From assembly GCA_018398765.1 (NCBI GenBank), contig JAHBMJ010000893.1, forward strand, positions 18,831 to 38,830: a DNA stretch of 20,000 nucleotides. The letters are read 5' to 3'. The position numbers and the translations under genes were made by a program. Of the stretch, positions 309-16,554 are shown one piece after another. Each line of letters begins with the position of its first letter. Position 1 is the stretch's first letter. Origin of the DNA: Chromera velia (taxonomy: Eukaryota; Sar; Chromeraceae). A model generated the notes under the pieces. The model searched no databases, was not told the DNA's origin, and worked only from the letters and a program-made list of their open reading frames with translations.

Positions 309-3300
309 CATTGGATTGAAGACCCTCTGGTACAAGCCGAAGGGGTGCGAGACCCTGGAGGACTTCCAGAAGAAATTCGGTCAGCATTCACACGATCAGG
401 CAGTCATCAGCATGCATGGGCATAAAACCAGAAAGAAGCCTGAAGTATCTTTTTGAACCAAAAAGAGGTGAGAGAAATAGAGGGTCGCTTTCTGCATCCC
501 GTAGAGGACTATGTCTTCGTTTCTTCTCTTCTATGGATGAGACACGCAAGAGAAACAAGAACAGACTGAAGACAGGCAGGGAACGGAGGCTGAATTACTT
601 ACTGGACCCCGATCTGCCCCCAATGACAGACAAGACAGACAGAGAAACAGACAGACAGGCAGGCAGGCAGGCAGGCAGACAGAGAGACGGACGGACGGAC
701 AGACAGGCAGACAGACAGACAGACAGATAGAAGAAAGTTCGGGGGGTCCCATTGTTTCCTTCCTCTGGCCCTCAGTCCGCATCTTTCTTCTTTTTGCTTC
801 CCTCCTTGTTTCTTTCTTTTCCTTCCTCCCCCCCTTCCTTCAAGCAGGTCACTACAACGCCCTGAAGGACGACGATTTTGACTATTCCTCCAAGGTGGAG
901 CCTCTGCAGCAGGTGCGTTCGTTCGTTTGATCGTTCGTTCGTTTATCTGTCTCTCTGCGCTGCGCGGTGCTGCATGGGCGCACAGAGAGAACTGTACAAA
1001 GAAGGGCACAAATGTGACCTCCTTGGTCCGACGAAGTACGTGACTGATCTCTCCCCCAAGAACGCACGAATAATTTTTTCCAGACAGATAAACATGCACA
1101 CAGGCAAACAGACAGACAGACAGACATACAGACATGCGCTTCAAAGCCGCGGAGTCGCAGCAGATCTGCAAGAAGGTGTGTTGTACCTTTCCTCTCCTCA
1201 TCGTCTTTGGATGGAGGGAGCGGGTTGGCATGGATGTCCTCGTCGTTGGGAGGCATGCAAGGGAGGTATCGTGTTGTTACAGCCCCAAGCCGAAACCATA
1301 CATCCTACCTCATACATGTGTACATGAGTGTGCATGTGTCTCTGAATGAACTTTCCTCCTTCCTTTCTCAAGCAGACCATGAACGAAACAAAGTTTTTTA
1401 ATCCTTGATTTCTCATTCTAGCGCATACGTAAGCATATTCATTCGAGCCTCACTCTCTCTCTCTGTCCACCCACCCACCTACGCAGGCCATGAACGAGTT
1501 GAAGTCGAAGAGCGCTGTTGTGATTACTGGAAGAAGGAACGACCAGGGCAATGCCCGTACCTCGATCCCCACATGGGAGGAGGAGAGAAACACCCTGAAC
1601 CCCCTGGTGGACTGGACCTGGGAGGACGTCACTGCTTATGCGACGATGTACAACGTCCCCGTGAACTCCCTGCACAAGAGGGTGCTCCTGGCAGAGAACG
1701 AAATCTCCCCCCTGACCAGAGACGCCCACAAGGACTTCCTCGAGTTCAACCTCGACAGGCCCTACTGGGAATATAACGAGGCGGCTCTCGAGAAGATGTT
1801 CGGTGGCAAGCACTGGTCTGTCTGTCGCTCAGTCTTTTTTTTTGCGTTTATTTTCATACAGGAAAGCACTGGTTGGTCTGTCTGTCAGTCAACTGGTCTG
1901 GTTGCATACATACATACATACATACATACATACACACACACATACATACATACACGTCTGTGATTTAAGTTGGGTTTGTGATTTGTGATCAGTCAAGCTG
2001 TCTGCAAGCAAAAGTATTTCTCTTCGGGTGGCGTGAGGGACTGACGGACTGGCCGAGGGAGGCTGTATGTGATTGTGTGAAAAGGAAACCTCTCCCTCTC
2101 CTGCAGGTATGTCTGGAAATCTTTCGGGGACTTCCACACTTCCCTTCCCGTGAAGATCCACGAGTCTGGTCAGTTGTTGTTGGGGCGGTAGGCCTGCGTT
2201 CTGGCTGTGTGGGGGTGGCTGCTTTGATTCGGCCTCCGACAAGCTGTTGCCTTTCGGTGGGGGTTTCGAATTGAGGGGTTTCTGTGAGAAGATATTCCGA
2301 AGGGCAACCTCAATTCTGCCTGTCCACTCCAATCACCTCATTCCTGTTCTTCCGGTCTTCGCTGCGGCTTTCTTCTTCTCGGTTCAACTCTGTGTGCAAA
2401 TGTTTGAGTGCGAGTTTGTGTCTGCACTGCAGAGCGCACTGGACGTTTCGTGAAGCGTGTGGCTACTGAGTGCGGCATCCACACCCGTGTGTCCAACACC
2501 AAGAAGGCGCCCCATGGAGGATCGAAGCTCGTCAACCTCCTCCCCTCTGCCTTCAGACCCGCACCCGATGTCTCTCAGTGCAAGCACACTATCTCCCTCA
2601 CCGAGAGACAGGTACGTACGTGTGTTGATCGGTCTTCAGACAGACAGAGAAGACACAGACAGATGCAAACAAACAGGTCCAAAGCGCAACAAAGTAAAGG
2701 ACATCGTGTACAATACCTTGCTTCATACCGACCCTCCAGTTGCCTGTTCCTTCTACAGGACAGCGAGTTTCCGTTGAGACCTCCTGAAGAAAGCACTCCA
2801 CACACACACACTGACTGCCTACCTAACCTTACCGCCCCTCCCTGTGCAGCTGTGCGATTTGGAACTTCTCATAAACGGAGGATACACTCCTCTGAATGGA
2901 TTCATGACCGAGGCCGAGTACGACCACTCCCTTCTCCACATGCGTCTGCCCGAGGGTGCTGTGTGGGGTCTCCCTGTGGTTCTCGACATCGGAGCAGAGA
3001 TGGCCTCCAAGGTCCAGGAGGGCGACAAAGTGCTCCTCAGAGCCGACGGATTCGGAGGAGACCTAGCCGTCATGACCGTCACGTCCAAGTGGAACCCTGA
3101 CAAGAAGGCCGAGGCACTCCACAGTGAGTTGCTTTTCTTTTGAAGACGCTACCTTCATCCTTTTGATTCTCGATGTTGTCAGATGCAACAAAGAGACTTG
3201 CAGGCAAGACACAGTCCGAAGTTCTTTAGTTTGTCTCACCCTCACTTTGTCTGAACTTTTGACGTTTGCCTCCTCAGGAGCTAATTCGAGTCTTCGAAGA

Positions 3301-6300
3301 AAGCGACAACAGGAATGAATATTCGTGTCTCCCACCCTTGACTGTCCCTCCATCCCTCCTGTCTGACTGTTGGTGACTGACTGCCTGCAGCCTGCAGCAC
3401 GGATGCCGCTGACCACCCCTACGTTGGATACATGTACAACCAAATGGGGGAGACGTACATTGGAGGGCCCATCGAGGGGATCAGACTCCCGGAGCGTCCA
3501 TGGGTTAGGAGAGTCAGCACTCCCTCGGAGACCAGGGAGAAACTCAAGAAGGCAGAAGAGGTCGTCGCATTCCAGTGCAGAAACCCTCTCCACAAGTCAG
3601 TCAGTCAGCCAAGTAAGCAGACAGCAAAGTTGTCTTTCTGCCAGTGTTCTTGCCCCCTCCCTCTGAATTTTCCTCTCTGTATTCGCATATTCTGTTTCCC
3701 TTCTTTCCTTCTCTGCATCAAGATTAATATCTTGACGCCTCTCAGCTCTTTGTCTCTTTTCCTTCCGGTCGAACTTGGTACTTGAGTCAGCTGGCTCCGT
3801 TCCCCTGTCGATGAATGTCGTGAAAGGCTCCTCCTTGATATCACTAGAGTGCATTGACAATACGTACGGTGGCGCTTTTGACGCACGCACGCACGCTTGC
3901 AGGGCCCACGTCGCAATGTTCACCGACACCGCCGCTGCGAAGATCCCCACCGTCGTTCATCCTGCCATCGGACCTTCCAAGGACGATGACTTTGACGCCT
4001 CTGTGAGAAGTCAGTCAGTCCGCATACGTGTCTTTCTTGTCAGTGATTCGGCCACACGGCCTTCGCGCGCTTATCGAGAGAGACACAGAGAGAAAGAAAC
4101 AATTTGATGAAAAGTGGCGAGCAAAAAGTGGTGCAGAAAGAAACGGTGGGGAAAGAGGGAGGGATCTGCAGTGGATGCGCCCTCTTGAACTCACCTCATC
4201 CGTCTGTCTCACTAGCTGACAGGGAGGGGGGTTCGACTTTCATTATCCTTTTTTCCCTCCCCTGCTTGGTTGGTAATTATCATGAGAGCGCCAAAAGCGT
4301 TCGCTTGCGAGGAGAAGTTTGTGGATGTGTAGACACATGCATGGGTGGGCAGGTGTGCAGATGGTTGTCGAACTCACGTACTCACTCACTGTATCCCTAC
4401 CTGCCTGCCTGCCTCCCTGTACGCCTGCAGTCCCCACCTATGAGACCCTGAACAGGACTCTTGCTGACCAGATGATCTCTTTCGAGTACTTCCCCTACCA
4501 CATGAGACTCGGTAGGTAGGCCTCTCTCTATCTCAACACACAAAACTGCATGGGGGAAGGAAGGAAAGGGCCGATAGATCGATAGAGTTCGCCTCCGCCA
4601 GAGTACATGTAGATGGGAGGGAGGGACTCCAATTTCATTAGTGAGGACGATTTTTGCGCATAATGGTCTTTGTGTGAGCCCTAGAACGAACTTCGATTTC
4701 AATCAAGCTGTCCTTCTTTCCTCTACGCTGCGTCAGATACGGACAGGAAATCCATCTTCGCCTTTGTGCACAACCAGAAACTCCTACTTCTTCTCGTCTT
4801 GTTGTTCTACTATCTTTTCGCACTCATCCTCCCTCCCACCCCCCCTTCTCCCCCTCCCTCTCTGCAGCCGGACCCCGTGAGGCAGTCCAGCACATGATCT
4901 GCAGGAAGAACTACGGGTTCACCCAGATGATCATCGGGCGGGACCACGCAGGGTGCAAGAACGCAGCGGGAGAAGACTTCTACGGGCCCTATGACGCTCA
5001 GGAACTCGCCTCCTCTGTGGAAGCCGAGATCGGTATCACGACTGTGCCCTTCAAGGCCTACGTGTTCCATGCGGACTCGTCTTCCTACGTGACTAAGGAG
5101 GATGCCAAGGAAAGAGGGTGGGTGGCTGTCTTTCTTCCTTCCTTCGGTTTTTGAATGTCTTTCTTTTGGCACGGACGTGCGCCTCTTCTTATTCTAACCG
5201 AATGAATGGGAACAGAGACAGACAGGAGAATTGTGGGGGGGGAGGCAAAAGACTGCGCGCATTATCTTTGAAAGCTCTACGGCGCTCCCAGCTCCCCTCC
5301 CTTTCTGCTAGCACTTCTCCAATGCAATCAATCTTGTGTGCCTTCTTTGCATTTCACTCCGATCCGCCAGAACTTTTCCTGATTCGGTATTCGATTCCCA
5401 GCGTTTTCCGCCTGTCTATTTCTCCTTTCGTTCTGTTCTGTTGTTAAATTCCTTTTTTGCGTGCGTGTGTGCGTGCGTACAGGCTGAAGACTGTCAACAT
5501 CTCCGGCACCGAATTCCGCCGCCGCATCACTGCGGGAGAGGCCGTCCCCGACTGGTACGCCTTCCCCGACGTCGTGCAGCTCCTCCAGGCCTCCTACAAC
5601 GTCGACAGAACCGCCAAGGCGGAGGAGGTCCCCAAGCTCGCAGAAGGCTCAGAGAGGGTCAGAGGAGGGGGGGGGGAGGGGGCAGGTGTGTTCCAGTTGA
5701 GGTTGATAAGAGAGACGGCCGCTTTTTGTACCGTGATGTATGTATGACCAGTGATGGGGAGGTACAGGTCAGAAGCCACAAAACGGAGCTCCTCTGCGTG
5801 TGGCCGTTAAGTCCCTTCCTGTCTTGCGCGTATCCGCTGCCTGTGATTCCTTCCTGGTAGTTTCGTTCCTACATCCTCCCTCCGAGGCTTATTTCTTTCT
5901 TCCATAGTTGGTTTTCCGATGATGTGCTTGTACATGAATGGGAGTTGACGATCAAGTGCATGTGCACTGCAGGCGGCAGTTCTGATGAGAGGAGGAGACG
6001 CGAGCGCCCAGGAGGCCCTTGCAAAGATTTCCAACGCCAAGACGCACATCCTCTTCTTCCACCCTGAGAAGGAGGCGGGGGCATCTGTGGAATTCGACGT
6101 GTCAGTCAGTCAGTGAGTGGAGTGGTCAGGCAGGCAGGCAGTTAGTGGAGTAGTCAGGAAGGCAGGCAGTGGCTCTGTTTGTCTCTCGCTGTTGTGTTGT
6201 TGGAGAGAAAGAACAATACTGAAGTCCTTTGGTGATCAAATCGGTGTTGTAAGGGAGAAATGGTGGCTATTCGAATGTCCTGCTTTTCCCCCTCTGCCTT

Positions 6301-6541
6301 GTGCCGGTCGGCCAAGAACCGACCGTTTATAGTTTCCATCGATCGTCTGTCCATTGGACCATCCCCCCCCTCCATTGATTCATTCATTCATTCTCTCTAG
6401 CTGGGTTTGTTTCCGTCGCGGTTGCATGGTGACGACTGCCTTCCTGTCTGTCTGTGTGTGTGCAGGTTCGGCCCTAAGGGCCAGAAGTTGCGAACTTGCG
6501 GGTCTCTTGAGGAGCTGGAGGCATTCTTGCAGGGAATCTAA
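309..6541 (+). CDS. APS/PAPS reductase (APR-B type)-ATP sulfurylase fusion, 5' end outside window
   Basis: Bifunctional sulfate-assimilation enzyme. Exons I place: 309-379, 848-912, 1487-1815, 2107-2168, 2433-2611, 2850-3123, 3391-3595, 3903-4009, 4431-4511, 4868-5117, 5483-5657, 5973-6100, 6466-6541 (TAA at 6539). Every intron is GT-AG and the spliced frame is open throughout: 666 residues plus stop. Order seen: C-terminal part of a CysH-type reductase (about 190 residues), a full ATP sulfurylase (about 400 residues, the family's usual size), and an extension of about 90 residues. The first in-window exon opens within a codon (phase 2), so the start codon, any plastid transit peptide and the reductase P-loop region lie upstream of position 1. 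Known chemistry: ATP sulfurylase makes APS from sulfate and ATP; the reductase makes sulfite from APS or PAPS. Cell compartment cannot be read here. Splice sites are inferred from homology and phase, with no transcript evidence. Confidence 0.9.
625..729 (+). repeat. GACA/GGCA tetranucleotide array in intron 380-847
   Basis: Nearly pure (GACA)n and (GGCA)n units with GGAC variants lie inside the intron between exons 309-379 and 848-912. The same GACA motif recurs in the next intron at about 1107-1135. It produces long reading frames on both strands that are not genes. Confidence 0.9.
1905..1954 (+). repeat. CATA tetranucleotide array in intron 1816-2106
   Basis: About twelve CATA units with a short CA run in the middle lie inside the intron that splits the Trp codon of the reductase KHW-YVW stretch. 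Confidence 0.9.
2433..2611 (+). other. Fusion-joint exon (reductase end and ATP sulfurylase start)
   Basis: One uninterrupted exon carries the reductase catalytic motif ECGIH (2468-2482), a nine-residue linker (TRVSNTKKA), then PHGG (2510-2521) and SKLVNLL, the typical N-terminus of ATP sulfurylase. Because both hallmarks share one exon and frame, the fusion does not depend on predicted splicing. The exon begins after a CTGCAG acceptor with two bases that complete a Glu codon, and ends CAG/gtacgt at phase 0. Confidence 0.92.
2510..5657 (+). other. ATP sulfurylase domain
   Basis: Sulfate adenylyltransferase domain spread over exons 5-11. Seen in order: PHGG...LVNLL; GGYTPLNGFM (family GGFSPLxGFM); YIGGPIEGIRLPERP; QCRNPLHKAH, the QxRNPxHxxH signature with its HxxH catalytic histidines, formed by splicing 3595 to 3903; HPAIGPSKDDDFD; MRLAGPREA, formed by splicing 4511 to 4868 (the family usually has MRYAGPREA); GRDHAG (4936-4953); YGPYDAQE; and NISGTEFRRR (5496 on). 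All nucleotide- and sulfate-binding signatures are intact, so an active enzyme is expected. No APS-kinase domain follows, unlike fungal MET3 or animal PAPSS. The C-terminal ISGTEFRRR...PDWYAFPDVV stretch looks more like the fungal and bacterial lineage than the animal one, judged only by eye. Confidence 0.93.
5655..6541 (+). other. C-terminal extension of the fusion protein, unknown function
   Basis: After the last ATP sulfurylase helix (LLQASY), the gene continues through the end of exon 11, exon 5973-6100 and exon 6466-6541. The extension holds a mixed-charge helix-like stretch (DASAQEALAKI), a hydrophobic strand (THILFFHPE) and an ending of FGPKGQKLRTCG followed by SLEELEAFL. The end is loosely reminiscent of the strand-turn-helix that closes thioredoxin domains, which would be notable because plant APS reductases carry a C-terminal thioredoxin/glutaredoxin module. 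The piece is too short for a whole thioredoxin fold and has no CxxC; the only cysteine is in RTCG. I do not assign a function. Confidence 0.6.
6101..6174 (+). repeat. GTCA repeat at a 5' splice site with a short direct duplication
   Basis: The intron after exon 5973-6100 opens with GTCAGTCAGTCAG. A 25-28-bp imperfect direct duplication built of GTGGAGTNGTCAGG and GGCAGGCAG units follows. The donor is the first of several equivalent GTCAGT positions. Confidence 0.7.
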
Positions 6542-8816: not shown

Positions 8817-10526
8817 CTAGCAGGGCGGGGCGTTCCCCAGCCTAAGCTGAGGTATCAGACCCCGTCCTCGGGGCCCGCCAGAGTCTGCTGCCCTGGCCGC
8901 TGCTGCATGATTGTTCGTTGTTCGAGCCACAGCTCTGGATCCGCGTTGGCTTTCCGGCCTGAAAATCAATCTAAAACGGCATGTGATTTGGGCTTCCTCG
9001 CTCTTTTTGTTTGCTTTATCAATCTTCTTCTGTGGCTCCCTCCTTCCCCACCCTAACGCTCCTTCGGTTGTCTCTAAATTATCAATTGTCTCCTCATATT
9101 CTTTTGTTAGTCTCTCGATCGCCCGCTGCCTTCCGATGATTCCTGCATATCTGGCCGCCAGAGCGTCTCCCTCTATGTGTCCGTACCATCCTGGACACTC
9201 CTCAAACACCCTCCGTCTGAATAACGCCCATCCCAAAAACTCATCCACTCCGGCATGACATTCATTCAACAGAAAACAGAAAAGCGTCGATTTGTGCCTT
9301 TTTCCTTCTTCTCTGTTGAGCCCTTCTCTTTCTGTGGCTGCCTTTCTGGCTCTTTCTTCCATCTTGCTGTCCCATTTCTCTTCTATCTTTCTGAACATCT
9401 CTGCTCTCTCTCTGTCAAAAACAAGACATTCTGTCACCAGATGGATTTCATCTTCCACCACCTCGATTCCCAACCACCCTCGACAGAACTGGCACATCCT
9501 TTTCTGTAACGGCACCTTCTCTCCCCCCCTTTCCGGAATTTTTCCCTGAGTCGCAGCCACAGCCCTGTCTCCCACCCTGCATGCTGCTCTCCTCCTGTGT
9601 TCTGATCGCGGCGCCACTCTCGTATAGCAAAAAGGGGCTCTCCCTATTCTCTCTCTGTCTATTTTCATTGCTAAGCCAACCTTTCTACCTGTTCTGTCTT
9701 CAAACAAAGAAAGGTGGAGACGGTTTCCATTTGAAACCTTTCTGTGCACGTCAGCCATCATCACTCCTGTCAGTTCTGCCTTATCCTGACTGCTCTTCTC
9801 TCTTATGTTTCTTTCTATTCTATATGCAAACGCCTCTCTCTTCTTCTCGTCTAGCTCATTTTTTGTTCTCTTCAGCAGCCATCTCTCTATCCCGTCCACT
9901 CTCTCGTTGACTACCTGTGTTCCTCTCTGCCCTACGCTTCCTTTTAGTCTTTCTCTTGCAAAAGGGTGCATTCCTCTGTCTGTGTAGAGTGCCTGTGCAC
10001 ATTGTTTCAGATGAGGGAAAAGATGAAAAGGATGCATTCCTCTCCCCCCTCCCATTTCGTTCTCTATCCCCTCTCTCAGGCATGTAAGGATTGCCTGCCC
10101 TACCGCTTCGTTTCTTCTCTCCTTTAAAGCCTTCCCTGCCCACCGGATCGTTCTGGAAGCCACTTCGAGATCAATCGGAATGAAACCTCCTTCCATCATC
10201 AGCGTGTCACAATTCTCTTTCTTTCTCAAACGCAAAACAAACCTGACAAATCTCCTTTGCTTCTCGTCGAATTCTGCATACGCGCTATCTGGGCATGCAT
10301 GGATTTCGCATCCATACAACCATACGGCGCGCACTGTCTGTTTAAATATATTGAAGCAATCAGCGGGTGGAATCCCTCCCTCCCTTCCTATCTTCCCCAT
10401 CAGTCCCTGCATGCATCTCTCTGCTTTGATTGACCGTGCTTTCATCATGGTTTCTAGGTTGCAGTCGGCGGATAGGACTAGTCCCAGGTAGGGTTGCTCT
10501 CTTGCTTCTTTCATCACTATCTCCCC
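8817..10526 (-). pseudogene. LINE C-terminal region, open copy A
   Basis: About 570 codons stay open from the N at 10527 down to a TAG at 8817-8819. It begins inside the RT thumb (GEIVMKEAREQPYLGLVLS) and contains the C-terminal knuckle CQFC...EIHLVTEC, a CxxC...HxxxxC arrangement common at the end of LINE polyproteins. A basic linker of unknown fold follows and the frame closes with a short tail (LRLGNAPPC). It has no start of its own and lacks endonuclease and the polymerase motifs. It is either the missing 3' half of the element at 10528-14150 or a piece of a second element. Confidence 0.85.
9441..10526. repeat. Direct duplication, copy A (partner 10528-11616)
   Basis: Starting with ATGGATTTCATCTTCC, this block matches 10528-11616 base for base apart from scattered substitutions (a few percent by eye) and two length differences (one base near 10050, four bases near 10377). 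Both copies end in the same CTCCCC. Confidence 0.95.
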
Positions 10527-10527
10527 N
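10527..10527. other. Ambiguous base N at the duplication junction
   Basis: The only N in the window. It lies exactly between the end of duplication copy A and the start of copy B, as expected of a one-base gap placed by an assembler between two overlapping contig ends. Confidence 0.95.
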
Positions 10528-11463
10528 ATGGATTTCATCTTCCACCACCTCGATTCCCAACCACCCTCGACAGAACTGGCACATCCTTTTCTGTAACGGC
10601 ACCTTCTCTCCCCCCCTTACCGGAATTTTTCCCTGAGTCGCAGCCACAGCCCTGTCTCCCACCCTGCATGCTGCTCTCCTCCTGTGTTCTGATCGCGGCG
10701 CCACTCTCGTATAGCAAAAAGGGGCTCTCCCTATTCTCTCTCTGTCTATTTTCATTGTCGAGCCAACCTTTCTACCTGCTCTGTCTTCAAACAAAGAAAG
10801 GTGGAGACGGTTTCCGTTTGAGACCTTTCTGTGCACGTCAGCCATCATCACTCCTGTCAGTTCTGCCTTCTCCTGACTGCTCTTCTCTCTTATGTTTCTT
10901 TCTATTCTATGTGCAAACGCCTCTCTCTTCTTCTCGTCTAGCTCATTTTTTGTTCTCTTCAGCAGCCATCTCTCTATCCCGTCCACTCTCTTGTTGACTA
11001 CCTGTGTTCCTCTCTGCCCTACGCTTCCTTTTAGTCTTTCTCTTGCAAAAGGGTGCATTCCTCTGTCTGTGTAGAGTGCCTGTGCACATTGTTTCAGATG
11101 AGGGAAAAGATGAAAAGGATACATTCCTCTCCCCCCCCCATTTCGTTCTCTACCCCCTCTCTCAGGCATGTAAGGATTGCCTGCCCTACCGCTTCGTTTC
11201 TTCTCTCCTTTAAAGCCTTCCCTGCTCACCGGATCGTTCTGGAAGCCACTTTGAGATCGATCGGAATGAAACCTCCTTCCATCATCAGTATGTCACAATT
11301 CTCTTTCTTTCTCAAACGCAAAACAAACCTGACAAATCTTCTTTGCTTCTTATCAAATTCTGCATACGCGCTATCTGGGCATGCATGGATTTCGTATCCA
11401 TATAACCATACGGCGCGCACTGTCTGTTTAAATATATTGAAGCAATCAGCGGGTGGAATCCCT
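10528..11463 (-). pseudogene. LINE C-terminal region, damaged copy B
   Basis: Continuation of the reverse transcriptase, duplicate of 9441-10370. Compared with that copy it has a TGG-to-TGA nonsense change at about 11226-11228 (after the residues RTIR) and a one-base deletion in a C run near 11134, besides a few percent substitutions. It ends at the N in position 10527, within the knuckle segment CQFCRGWLG...VEDEIH, just before the His/Cys half of the motif is complete. Confidence 0.85.
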
Positions 11464-12858
11464 CCCTCCCTCCCTTCCTATCTTCCCCATCAGTCCCTGC
11501 ATGCATCTCTCTGCTTTGATTGACCGCGCTTCCATCATGGTTTCTAGGTTGCAGTTGGCGGATAGGACTAGTCCCAGGTAGGGTTGCTCTCTTGCTTCTT
11601 TCATCACTATCTCCCCCAGTCTAACTTCTTCTTTCTCTCTTGATGCGATGCGGCCAAACCGGACGAATCTCGACTTGTCAGAGAATAGAAGACGGAGAGG
11701 TTCTGCAAAGGCTACAAGGTTCGAAAGAAGAAGGTTCAACTGTCTATCTGAGGATTCGAGGAGTGTTGTGTCATCTGCAAACAGAGGGGCAAGGAAATCG
11801 ACCCACCTCCCGTTTTCTCCTGCCGGCACCTTTGGCCTCTGTCTGTCGGTCTGTCGTCTCTGTCCTCTCCTCTTTCCTACTTCCTCTGGCAAGTCATGTG
11901 TGTACACAGAGTAAAGGGAAGGGCCGCTCGGGCCTCCTTGCTTGAGTCCTTTGTCTTCCGGGTACCACATGCTCGTTCCCTTCACCCGTGCCCTCACTTT
12001 TTCCAGAGAGGCCTCAACCCATCTGATCAGACCTTCCTCCACCCCTGCCTTTCTCAATTTTTCTTTTAACTTTTCCAACCTCACTTCGTCGAAAGCCCGT
12101 GTGAAGTCAACAAAAGCAACACTGAGCACTTCCATTCGAGCAATAACGAACAGTAAAAGAAAAATTGCATCGCATGTGCCTGTCTTTCTCTTGTATGTGA
12201 ACTGCCATGGCGTCTGTCTGGCTTCCTTTTCCACCTTTGTTCTCATGATCATGTCCCCCCATTTCGCATCTGCTACCACCAGGTGCACTCCCCTCCATCC
12301 CCCAATTAGTGCGAGTAACTTACCCGGTTTTGGAAGGGCCGTCACCGGCAAGTCATTCCACCCTTTCAGCCACCAGCAGCCTCCTTCATTTATTTCGGCT
12401 CTTATGTTCTCCACCTTTCTCTTTTCTGCCTTCCGTTGCTCTCTTGTCACCACGTTTCTCAGCGCTCTCTCTATCATGACTAACTGTTTTCTCCTCTCTT
12501 CATATGCCTGTCTCAATCTTTCTTCTTCCTGAGCTGAGGTGCTGCTCTCGTTTTCTCGTTCATCCCTCTGCTCTCTTTCTGCTTTCAAGCCTCTGATTTC
12601 CTCTCTCACTTTTCTCTCTATTCTTTTGAGTTTTCTTATTTGCTTTCTTCCTTCCCCTCTCAGCGCTTCTGCTGGCTCTTCTTTCCTCTCCCTTTTTCTT
12701 TCTTCTTTCTTCTCCTTCCTTGTTGCCCACATGAAGGTTTTCTCTCTGATGTGTTGGAACTTCTGGTATGCTTCGTCGAGCAAGTCTTTCTTTATTTCTT
12801 CTCCCTCTTTCATATCCATTGCTTTCTGAAAGACCTCACTAACTTTTTCCTCCTTCAC
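11464..12858 (-). pseudogene. LINE reverse transcriptase domain
   Basis: Directly continues the endonuclease frame after one in-frame TGA. A Lys/Glu/Arg-rich linker of about 150 residues is followed by ALPKPGK, AFVDFTRAFDEVR (motif A, with catalytic Asp), GLKQGGPSGPSLYSVYTHDL (motif B) and PLFADDTTLL (motif C, FADD), then YLGLVLS. The polymerase aspartates are intact. Near 11464 a four-base insertion (an extra TCCC in a CCCT run, compared with the copy at 10371-10390) shifts the frame, so this copy cannot make the full protein. Confidence 0.9.
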
Positions 12859-13956
12859 TCAGAGTCTTTTCTGAAGCTCTTGGAGATACCTTTCCTCTCC
12901 TTCCTTTGTGAGCGTTCCCTTCCATCTTGGCTTGATTTGATCTTCTTTTTTCTCGTTTTTCTTTCTCTTTTCCCTCTTTTTTGTCTTTCTTTGCCTATCT
13001 TTTCTTCTTTTCTTTTTGTTCTGTTCTTGGTTGGCTTCGTTCTCTTCCTCGTTTCCTCTTCCCTCGCCGCTCTCATTCTCTCTTTCTTCCTCCCTCAGGA
13101 CTAATCTAAGAGCTGAATGGTCTGACCGAGCTGAGCACACACAAAATACAGAAAAAAGAAGAACAGATAGCAGAGACACAGGAGATATACATGCATAGTC
13201 GATCAGGGACCTCCCTCTGTCTCCCCCCCTGTTGAAGGTAAACGATCCATCGAAGTTGAAAGCTACCTTCTCCCCCCCCTCTTCAACCACACACCGCCTC
13301 AGTCCATTCAGAGGAACAATGCCCACCATCTCACAAAAACGAATAAGAGCCCTTCCCTTCGTGTTCTCCGTCTCGTCTTCAGACTCCCTCTCCGGTCTGA
13401 AAACTTCCTCTCTCCCGCCTGTTTGTGCCCACTCTTCCCCTTCTCCCCCTCCTTTCCCTATCCAGACTATCAGAGGAGTTTTTTTTCCAGTGCGGGCGTT
13501 GAAGTCCCCCATCACGCAGACCTCTGAAAATCTGCTCTCTCCTTTTCTTTCTCTCTCTGCTCTTTTCTCTTCGATTCTCTCTGCCAAATTGTTGAGGTGT
13601 GTCTTATCTGCGTAGTTCAACTCTTTATGGGGGTCATACAAGCCAACGAAGAGCGGGAAGCCTGGTGCTTCTGCAAATACCGCTATCTCCGTTGCTCTTT
13701 CTGTCGTAAAGCCCAGCTCTCTTGCCTTTCTGCTCATCAATACCATCACCCCCCCTGTCGTCGTCACTTCTCTTCCCTCCCTTACTAACGGGAAATTCGT
13801 TCCTTGCAGTCTTCCTCCATTCACACTGCACACTGTCCTCTCTGTTCTAGTTTCATTCATAAAGAGGATGTCGGCTCTAAGACTTTTCGTTTCTTCTGTA
13901 AAAAGCGGGCTTTGCACCAAATTCTCCGTTCTTCCCCTTACGTTCAGAGCCCACAT
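12859..13956 (-). pseudogene. LINE APE-type endonuclease domain
   Basis: Nicks target DNA in target-primed reverse transcription. From an ATG at 13956 the frame runs 365 codons to a TGA at 12861-12859. Motifs in order: LNVRG near the N-terminus, ADILFMNETR (the catalytic Glu block; the family usually has QET), TGGVMVL, GDFNAR, SLIDYA and SDHSALRLVL. All the core metal- and phosphate-binding blocks are present. The open frame extends upstream through a poly-Ser tract encoded by a TCT microsatellite, which is probably not part of the protein. The C-terminal tail is very rich in Lys, Arg and Glu. The frame resumes directly after the TGA as the reverse transcriptase, so the original product was one polyprotein. 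Confidence 0.88.
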
Positions 13957-14015
13957 CTCTACTCTTTTGTCTTTCTTATTTTGTTTGCTCTTCCTGTTCG
14001 TTACGAGGGAAGACA

Positions 14016-14147
14016 AAAAAGAAAAAGAAGAAGAGGAAGACGAAAAAGAGGAAGAAAAAGAAGAAGAAGAAGAAGAAGAAGAAGACAAAGACGAAGACGA
14101 GGACGAAGACGAAGAAGAAGAAGAAGAAGAAGAAGAAGAAGAAGAGT
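14016..14147. repeat. GAA/GAC trinucleotide microsatellite at the LINE 5' end
   Basis: A 130-bp imperfect (GAA)n tract with GAC interruptions reads as poly-Glu on the plus strand and poly-Ser on the minus strand. It adjoins the 5' end of the LINE open frame, about 60 bases upstream of the ATG at 13956. Confidence 0.95.
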
Positions 14148-14150
14148 GAA

Positions 14151-15542
14151 ATCGTACAGCTTTCAGAGGAAGCGCTTTAGTAGACGCATCACTTGTCACT
14201 GGGCCGTTTTAGTTTTCTTACCAGGCATACCGCAATGCTAGCCACGATATGTGTACATATTTTACAACCGCTGTTTATTTTATTAGTATTTATTAGAACC
14301 ATTATCTATATATGTCCTAATAAATGTTTACTCAGTTTACTAATAGAACCATTATCTATATGTCCTAATACCCTATAACCTCTAGGAGGCTAGATTTTCT
14401 GTATTTACATTTGAGTTTCTGTATAGAAGTTTTGAGTTGGTAGAACACAGTTGTTCGTAAAGCAGGCTGAGCTTACAAGCTCAGAAGCTCATCAAGGGCT
14501 CACACCACAAACTGTGACTCGAGCTTGAGCAATACGCTCGCAAAGCAAACGTGCCCCTCAAGCATCGCGGCTCAAAAAGCATGCGCATGCGAGCATTGCA
14601 TGCTGCCTGCAACACTGCACATCGCAACACTTTGCAACGATTAATTTCATATCGAGCCATAACTCACTTAAGCCGTTACCAAGACCAAACTTTGAACCAT
14701 TACCTAAGCCAAACCAAATTGATGCTTGAAGAACTTGAATGCCGAGAACCATCATGCAGCAGCGCAAACAAAACAAAACAAAACACGAGTGGATCCAATA
14801 TTTAATTTTGTACGATGCAGGCCCAAGGTCGATCATACCAAGTGAAACAGGGTGCAAGATGATTCACCCACTAAATAGGACAAGCTGTCTATCGCTTTCT
14901 AAATCTCCCCTTTGCTGAATCCGAATTGCAAAAGCCCCCACCCCAATGCTCTGAGTACTTCTTTAAACTTGCTATCAGAGCACAGAGAAAAAAGGAAAGC
15001 GCATTGCAGGTGGCTTCTGAGAATGGTCTCTCTCTGCTTCCGGGGTACCGCTGACTGCGCATGTGCGAAGCGAGGAAAGACGAAAGGGACAGAAATGTTC
15101 TCGTCTGTTCCTACCTTGTTTGTACAGCCATTCACGTCCTTCGGACGCAGAAAGAGATGTAAGCAGCACTGGTATGGATAAAGATCAAACTGAAGAAAAC
15201 TGTTTCCTTCGTGCCTCTCCAACACACACTCCACCACATAAAAATCTGGAAGCAACCAACTGCTGATCACATGATCCCGACACTGATTAAAAGGCAATCG
15301 AGATACTATAATCCGGTTGTCCATCCATCTGCACATCAAACGGGACAGTAGAATCCTTCCTTTCACTTCTTCTCCTCTGCCATGCGGCAGAAGCTGTGTC
15401 ACCCTCCGAGCCCGTGATGACTCCCATTCCATAAAACCAGCTGTCGGCCCGGGATTGGCAAGACCTGGCGACAAAGGCGATCCTTACACCAGTCCCTCCT
15501 TCTGTCGAACAACTCTCGTACCCACCCGCATAAGACACGTTG
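14151..15542. other. AT-rich spacer, no gene recognised
   Basis: Composition drops in GC compared with the gene blocks. It holds a pair of 30-bp direct repeats (14292-14322 and 14341-14370), an 18-bp near-perfect palindrome CTGAGCTT-AC-AAGCTCAG (14467-14484) and the 12-bp palindrome GCATGCGCATGC (14579-14590). A 191-codon minus-strand frame at 15474-14899 has no features I recognise and I do not call it a gene. Confidence 0.5.
14292..14370 (+). repeat. Two direct repeats of AGAACCATTATCTATAT
   Basis: Units of about 30 bp (14292-14322 and 14341-14370) share AGAACCATTATCTATAT and GTCCTAATA, differing by a 2-bp AT insertion, with an 18-bp spacer of AAATGTTTACTCAGTTTAC type. Confidence 0.8.
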
Positions 15543-16033
15543 AATTGGAGGTGTTTTGGTGTTTTGGATTCTCCAAAAAGTGGTTTGGAGCTCCAAAAAA
15601 AGTTTTTGGAAGTATATTAGTATGAAAGAACTAAAAGTCCTAAGAAAGTCCTAGTTAGGGTTCCTAACATAAAAAAAAATAGACAACACGTTTCTAGTAC
15701 TTACATGATTTTAAACTTTACAGTTGAGTCACCAAAATGTTTTTGGAGATTGGGGACCTCCAATTTTTTTTTTAGAAGAATTTCTTCAAAACTTATACGA
15801 TTGTTTTAGAGAATTCAAAAAAAAAAAAAATTGGAGGTCATCAATCTCCAAAAATATTTTGGTGACCGAACTGTAAAGTTTTAGATCATATAAGTGCCAG
15901 AAACGTGTTTTTAATTATTTTTTATGTTAGGAGCGCTAATTAGGACCTCCTTTATTACACTGAGGCTCCTTACGACTTTTAGTTTTTTTATAGCAAGGCA
16001 CCTCCAAAATTTTTTTTTTAGATTTTCGATCTC

Positions 16034-16282
16034 CTAGGCATATCATAGCAAAAAAAAAATAAATAAAAAAAATAAACCAGAATTGGTTTAAATTATTATT
16101 TTTTTTTTTTTGTGCAACACCTAAGCAACAGTGCTGTAATACTTGTGCAACACCAAAACAATATTTATGCAACACTTGAATAACAGTTGTGTTATCACCT
16201 AACATCGTCGGACAAAAAAAAAAAATTAAGCGAGGACGTCCGGGCTTAACTTATTATTTTTTTTTCTCTGTGATATGCCTAG
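16034..16282. mobile_element. 249-bp MITE with 8-bp target-site duplication, hAT-like, nested
   Basis: Perfect 12-bp terminal inverted repeats CTAGGCATATCA / TGATATGCCTAG are followed on both sides by a similar A-rich stretch (AG...AAAAAAAATAA). Flanks TCGATCTC at 16026-16033 and 16283-16290 are identical direct repeats (9 bp if the next C is counted). An 8-bp duplication with TAGGC-like ends is typical of the hAT superfamily; P-type elements also give 8 bp. There is no coding capacity. It is inserted inside the foldback element and so is younger than it. Confidence 0.82.
16113..16175 (+). repeat. Three TGCAACAC motifs in the nested MITE
   Basis: TGCAACAC occurs at 16113-16120, 16146-16153 and 16168-16175 in the interior of the small element, spaced 33 and 22 bases apart. 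They might be subterminal transposase-binding sites; this is inference from position only. Confidence 0.6.
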
Positions 16283-16554
16283 TCGATCTCCAAAACCTAT
16301 ACGATTTTTTTGGATTTCTCCAAAAACAATTGGAGGTCCCCAATCTCCAAAAACATTTTGGTGACCCAACTATAAAGTTTTAGATCATATAAGTACTATA
16401 AATGTGTTTTCCATCATTTTCTATATTAAGAGCGCTAACTAGGGCCTTCCTAGGACTTTTAATTTTTTCATACCAATTAATGTACCTCCAAAAAATGTTT
16501 TTAGAGCTCCAAACTACTTTTTGGAGAATCCAAAACACCAAAACACCTCAAATT

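Follow-up and report, generated by a model that had tools for sequence, protein, structure and literature searches.

A fused reductase–ATP sulfurylase gene of Chromera velia described at exon level

The window analysed here, a stretch of 20,000 nucleotides (nt) of Chromera velia DNA (contig JAHBMJ010000893.1, positions 18,831 to 38,830), carries a gene in which a reductase similar to 3′-phosphoadenosine 5′-phosphosulfate (PAPS) reductases is joined to an ATP sulfurylase. The fusion is confirmed at the level of the gene. Thirteen exons on the + strand, between window positions 309 and 6541, are joined into a 666-residue open frame closed by a TAA stop codon. All 12 introns start with GT and AG precedes each of the 13 exons; this bears out the frame open over 13 exons that had been proposed in a sequence-only reading of the same DNA. 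The frame is incomplete at its 5′ end. The sequence upstream of the window consists of N, and the N-terminal part of the reductase, with its nucleotide-binding loop and any targeting leader, is expected there; within the window the only N lies outside the gene. The G+C content at third codon positions (GC3) is 0.76 across the coding sequence and 0.81 across the junction of the two halves, and the 12 introns show no periodicity (G+C 0.40–0.59 at any position). The domain scans and the search of the organism's own genome reported below used an earlier 14-exon, 670-residue version of the product, with an extra 12-nt micro-exon (1164–1175). This micro-exon was rejected, as it adds a four-residue insertion to an otherwise nearly collinear alignment. 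The exons are as follows.

309..379, + strand: exon 1 readable in the window, reductase, bordered by gcag and GTCAGC; aligns to the PAPS reductase 2oq2 from 2oq2 residue 107; earlier exons are unreadable
848..912, + strand: exon 2, reductase; FDYSSK, the Y/FxxxxK motif of the class without an iron–sulfur (Fe–S) cluster
1487..1815, + strand: exon 3, reductase; GRR..QG core, and from 1679 an insert of 46 residues, its last codon completed by position 2107
2107..2168, + strand: exon 4, reductase; GDFHTS, corresponding to GDxxxT/S
2433..2611, + strand: exon 5, the joint exon; catalytic ECGIH, nine residues, PHGG start of the ATP sulfurylase
2850..3123, + strand: exon 6, N-terminal PUA-like domain of the ATP sulfurylase (PF14306)
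3391..3595, + strand: exon 7, ATP sulfurylase; QCRNPLHK, which opens the HxxH motif
3903..4009, + strand: exon 8, ATP sulfurylase; AHVAMF, which completes HKAH
4431..4511, + strand: exon 9, ATP sulfurylase
4868..5117, + strand: exon 10, ATP sulfurylase; GRDHAG and FYGPYDAQ
5483..5657, + strand: exon 11, end of the ATP sulfurylase domain; C-terminal tail from about 5595
5973..6100, + strand: exon 12, C-terminal tail, without match
6466..6541, + strand: exon 13, C-terminal tail and stop codon TAA

The joint exon carries the argument for a fusion. It is 179 nt long, bordered by ctgcag and GTACGT, and its translation (...RTGRFVKRVATECGIHTRVSNTKKAPHGGSKLVNLLPSAF...SLTERQ) is free of stops in one frame, each of the other two frames containing a stop. 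ECGIH occupies residues 188–192 of the product and APHGG starts at 201, so that nine residues (TRVSNTKKA) separate ECGIH from PHGG, exactly as the sequence-only reading had it. A stop or a frameshift in this exon had been named there as a refutation; in the existing assembly sequence the frame is open and the coding bias is kept. A Pfam scan of the joint exon by itself gives no match. The block ending in ECGIH matches the last segment of 2oq2 independently (independent E-value 4.9e-5), and the sulfurylase alignments start at residues 2–6 of the six best-scoring chains (at 2 or 3 in 1r6x and 1i2d). Thus, the homologies of the two halves meet within one exon, and a whole sulfurylase follows, almost without a linker, a reductase whose catalytic end is complete. 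In the sulfurylase half, the first Met is residue 254, 53 residues past the start at 201, with none between ECGIH and 254. The sulfurylase half therefore has no possible ATG start within the joint exon.

The upstream half belongs to the CysH family. PF01507 (PAPS_reduct) matches residues 22–169 (1.8e-13; 51.3 bits against a cut-off of 22.5) over profile positions 74–171 of 175, and the catalytic ECG(I/L)H is present as ECGIH at 188. The full-length reductase models of NCBIfam score below their cut-offs (TIGR02057 PAPS_reductase, 81 bits; TIGR02055 APS_reductase, 41 bits; APS, adenosine 5′-phosphosulfate), as expected for a domain without its first part. Among PDB chains, the best scores go to 2oq2 (91 bits, 6.3e-25) and 7rge (78 bits, 7.1e-21), which we take to be fungal, followed by 4bwv (33 bits, 3.8e-7), presumably the moss APS reductase (APR) APR-B, then 6vpu (20 bits) and 2goy (18 bits, 0.02). 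The reductase pieces are 48% identical to 2oq2, 47% to 7rge and 37% to 4bwv; the database labels of these three chains all read PAPS reductase. With the two fungal enzymes, the fusion shares the GRR..QG core, GDxHS/T, ERxGR and TECGIH; 2oq2 (261 residues) stops 12 residues past the aligned ECGIHE and has no sulfurylase. At the positions of the Fe–S Cys motifs the product has FDYSSK and GDFHTS, which assigns the enzyme to the Fe–S-less class of reductases, defined by Y/FxxxxK and GDxxxT/S in place of the Cys pairs (PMC2275785). The Fe–S Cys pairs and the C-terminal thioredoxin-like domain of plant-type APR are both absent, and no thioredoxin domain occurs among the Pfam matches of the spliced product.

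Domains and motifs identify the downstream half as a complete ATP sulfurylase, and its type as fungal/cyanobacterial. PF14306 (PUA_2) covers residues 205–361 (1.5e-39; profile 2–157 of 159) and PF01747 (ATP-sulfurylase) residues 373–580 (2.6e-65; profile 5–210 of 212). The profile search of the spliced protein suggested in the sequence-only reading thus finds the reductase and both sulfurylase domains. TIGR00339 (sopT, NCBIfam) scores 356.1 bits, above its cut-off of 322.95, in agreement with an ATP sulfurylase (sat/sopT). The active-site motifs HKAH, GRDHAG and FYGPYDAQ are conserved with the two fungal ATP sulfurylases 1i2d and 1r6x at 37–40% identity; when cyanobacterial enzymes (Prochlorococcus/Synechococcus) are included, the common two-domain architecture extends over 37–46% identity. 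Unlike this fusion, fungal ATP sulfurylases have a C-terminal APS-kinase-like domain (PMC4220642). The sulfurylase half, tail included, contains seven cysteines, and Table 1 of PMC4220642 lists the same number for C. velia as well as for three dinoflagellate fusions of APR with ATP sulfurylase (APR-ATPS). This agreement would be a weak sign of kinship, as other algal sulfurylases in the same table also have seven.

Two segments of the product call for separate description. An in-frame insert of 46 residues, encoded by 1679–1815 and the first base of exon 2107–2168, precedes GDFHTS and the catalytic segment, and has no Pfam match at E <= 10. It is not found in the reference reductases 2oq2, 7rge and 4bwv, which as compared miss three to four residues at the insert site; the alignment gap of 49–50 columns is overstated by those residues, and the length of 46 is an estimate. 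The insert is strongly coding-biased (GC3 0.85). An alternative donor that would delete it was sought and rejected, the GT dinucleotides after 1743 and 1797 keeping phase 2 but leaving part of the insert. Since such phase-2 donors within 1680–1815 do not remove it and its GC3 is high, the insert is kept as coding. The second segment is a tail of 88 residues, C-terminal to the sulfurylase domain, from about 5595. It has no Pfam match at E <= 10, nor do the last 90 residues match any PDB chain at that threshold.

Outside this gene, the window contains apparent mobile elements. A reverse transcriptase domain (PF00078, 1.1e-15) lies in a 470-residue open reading frame (11446–12858, – strand), within a run of long – strand frames (8817–14199) whose other three long members match nothing in Pfam at E <= 0.01; a retrotransposon thus seems to lie downstream of the fusion gene. 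At 15543–16554, nested inverted repeats with arms of 88, 162 and 141 nt, 84–86% complementary, suggest a transposable element of the foldback or non-autonomous kind.

The remainder of the pathway was sought in the genome (177.8 Mb, 4040 contigs). This exon-by-exon search, which a strongly split or divergent second gene could escape, revealed no ATP sulfurylase locus besides the fusion: the 670-residue query gave 13 segments at E <= 1, all at the fusion locus (12 candidates scored), and matches to PF01747 (E <= 0.001) and PF14306 (E <= 0.1) are confined to the same place. This suggests that the fusion may be the only ATP sulfurylase of the genome. A separate APS kinase is encoded on contig C562 (4.4e-63) by a single open reading frame of 286 residues (L011:1339–2199, – strand). 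Its best PDB match is the chloroplastic APS kinase 3uie (9.1e-57), and its leader resembles a signal peptide with a plastid-type transit peptide behind it. On contig C1175 (L012), the APS kinase profile (positions 3–43) matches a 348-residue open frame weakly, at E 0.02 and with 21.6 bits, just over the cut-off of 21.1. Three segments of sulfite/nitrite reductase are present. A search for photosystem I genes (PF00223) gave no match. Two other matches to PF01507 occur. The one on contig C309 is probably an FAD synthase, with an FAD synthase as best PDB match (21 residues, 2.2e-4). The other, on contig C4039 (L007), is a PAPS_reduct frame among adjoining long open reading frames of bacterial look, and this contig is probably a bacterial contamination of the assembly.

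Enzymes of this architecture are known. A fusion of ATP sulfurylase with APR was described in Heterocapsa triquetra by Patron et al. (2008; PMC2275785), with APS channelling proposed, and Prioretti et al. (2014; PMC4220642) place APR N-terminal to ATP sulfurylase in dinoflagellates (Amphidinium), Chromera velia and Capsaspora. The APR-ATPS of Heterocapsa triquetra, Amphidinium and Chromera velia have in common with the present gene the N-terminal reductase, the C-terminal ATP sulfurylase, the Fe–S-less class and the seven cysteines of the sulfurylase half; this likeness is to the published descriptions. Both the fusion and the idea of an APS hand-over are therefore already in print, since 2008 for a dinoflagellate and by 2014 for Chromera velia. 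The hand-over put forward in the sequence-only reading stands as a reasonable hypothesis and loses its novelty to Patron et al. The present analysis adds a model of the gene exon by exon, the resemblance of the reductase to PAPS reductases, its insert, the C-terminal tail and the apparent absence of another ATP sulfurylase. As of 2014, statements on the function of APR-ATPS were called premature for want of activity or kinetic data (PMC4220642), and a literature search, with most subscription journals outside its reach, found no published activity study of the fused enzyme. In the available text of a chromerid metabolism paper (PMC6668581), the word ‘sulfate’ does not occur.

The combination appears absent among the prokaryotic relatives that were sampled. 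No reductase match occurs in the frame of the ATP sulfurylase itself or beside it in any of 80 loci (open reading frames of >= 60 residues, flanks of <= 5 kb), whether at E <= 1e-3 or at E <= 10; these are the best 80 of at least 560 confirmed stretches, mostly from cyanobacteria and Rhodobacterales, other prokaryotes being hardly sampled. As a positive control, the four-sequence reductase profile matched a piece of the PAPS reductase 6vpu with 67 bits in a single-sequence search. Nine of the 80 sulfurylase frames have >120 residues, counted stop to stop, ahead of the sulfurylase. Relatives of the whole fusion were not found in the searched collection of genome contigs, nor relatives of the ATP sulfurylase in the searched viral contigs. 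In the available text of a survey of archaeal fusions (PMC11237513), CysH and Sat are fused to other partners and not to one another. The fusions of APS kinase with ATP sulfurylase (animals, fungi) and of ATP sulfurylase with pyrophosphatase likewise remove a product that ATP sulfurylase forms; here, the partner is a reductase.

Taken together, the gene very probably represents the known APR-ATPS fusion, a nuclear gene for one polypeptide in which an Fe–S-less reductase is followed by a complete ATP sulfurylase, APS being made by one half and drained by the other. The ATP sulfurylase half would make APS from ATP and sulfate, and the attached reductase would convert APS to sulfite and AMP. Since no thioredoxin domain is attached, electrons are proposed to come from an external thioredoxin or glutathione system. 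Draining of APS would pull forward a sulfurylase reaction that is unfavourable and product-inhibited; PMC4220642 states both the product inhibition of ATP sulfurylase and the pull that APS reduction exerts on it. The two domains, their intact motifs and the joint frame are shown by the sequence; that both halves are transcribed in a single mRNA, that the substrate is APS and not PAPS, where the electrons come from and whether APS passes over directly are matters of inference. Several points weigh against this interpretation. The fused frame is known at the level of the gene, and its 5′ part, where the nucleotide-binding loop and any targeting leader are expected, cannot be read. Two fungal PAPS reductases lead the reductase scores with 91 and 78 bits, 4bwv reaching 33 and the APS reductase 2goy 18, and the separate APS kinase makes a PAPS route possible. 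In addition, PMC4220642 is inconsistent on C. velia, its text and a figure legend giving APR-ATPS and its Table 1 ATPS.

In one alternative, the fused reductase uses PAPS. APS would then leave the sulfurylase, be phosphorylated by the separate APS kinase and return as PAPS, so that the fusion would tie two non-consecutive steps. The E-values order the solved structures in this sense (2oq2 and 7rge, of the fungal PAPS reductase type, ahead of 4bwv and 2goy), TIGR02057 scores above TIGR02055, although both are far under their cut-offs, and the required kinase is encoded in the genome. However, similarity does not decide specificity in this family, the moss APR-B being Fe–S-less and yet APS-using. 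Similarity scores lean towards PAPS reductases, whereas the published phylogeny and extract activities lean towards APS; a high APR activity was reported in H. triquetra extracts, partly as unpublished data (PMC2275785). PAPS use is considered improbable here. The claim in the sequence-only reading that the fusion bypasses APS kinase is unproven: the genome encodes an APS kinase of its own, no sulfurylase other than the fusion was found, the reductase is Fe–S-less and PAPS-reductase-like by score, and the part of its domain where the nucleotide-binding loop belongs is unreadable.

A further possibility concerns the mechanics of the protein. The catalytic cysteine of related reductases sits on a mobile C-terminal tail. 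In the fusion, this cysteine lies 12 residues ahead of the sulfurylase, which may constrain this otherwise mobile tail. It is tempting to imagine a sole sulfurylase joined to a PAPS-type reductase, in which the anchored Cys, the insert and the tail domain would provide mechanical or allosteric coupling, with no tunnel and with APS kinase also being fed, but this scheme is rather unlikely.

Two explanations would remove the fusion protein itself. Two overlapping genes with separate transcripts, the fused protein never being made, are very unlikely: a single 179-nt exon has homology on either side and no in-frame stop past ECGIH, the first Met of the sulfurylase half lies 53 residues inside, and the same fusion is published from other species (PMC2275785, PMC4220642). 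An assembly chimera of two unrelated genes, for which the bacterial-looking contig C4039 in the same set could be invoked as a sign of a draft assembly, is scarcely credible, because the join lies inside an exon in sequence without N, frame and codon bias run on across it, and published homologues have the identical domain order (PMC2275785, PMC4220642).

The fusion offers a natural experiment on whether an unfavourable reaction is drawn forward when consecutive enzymes are joined. Should no other sulfurylase exist, the separate APS kinase would depend on the fusion for its APS, and some APS would be released. In that case, a high local concentration of APS, or a coupling of the two reactions, is to be expected rather than a closed channel. 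That the genome has no other ATP sulfurylase, if true, would thus argue against a closed APS channel.
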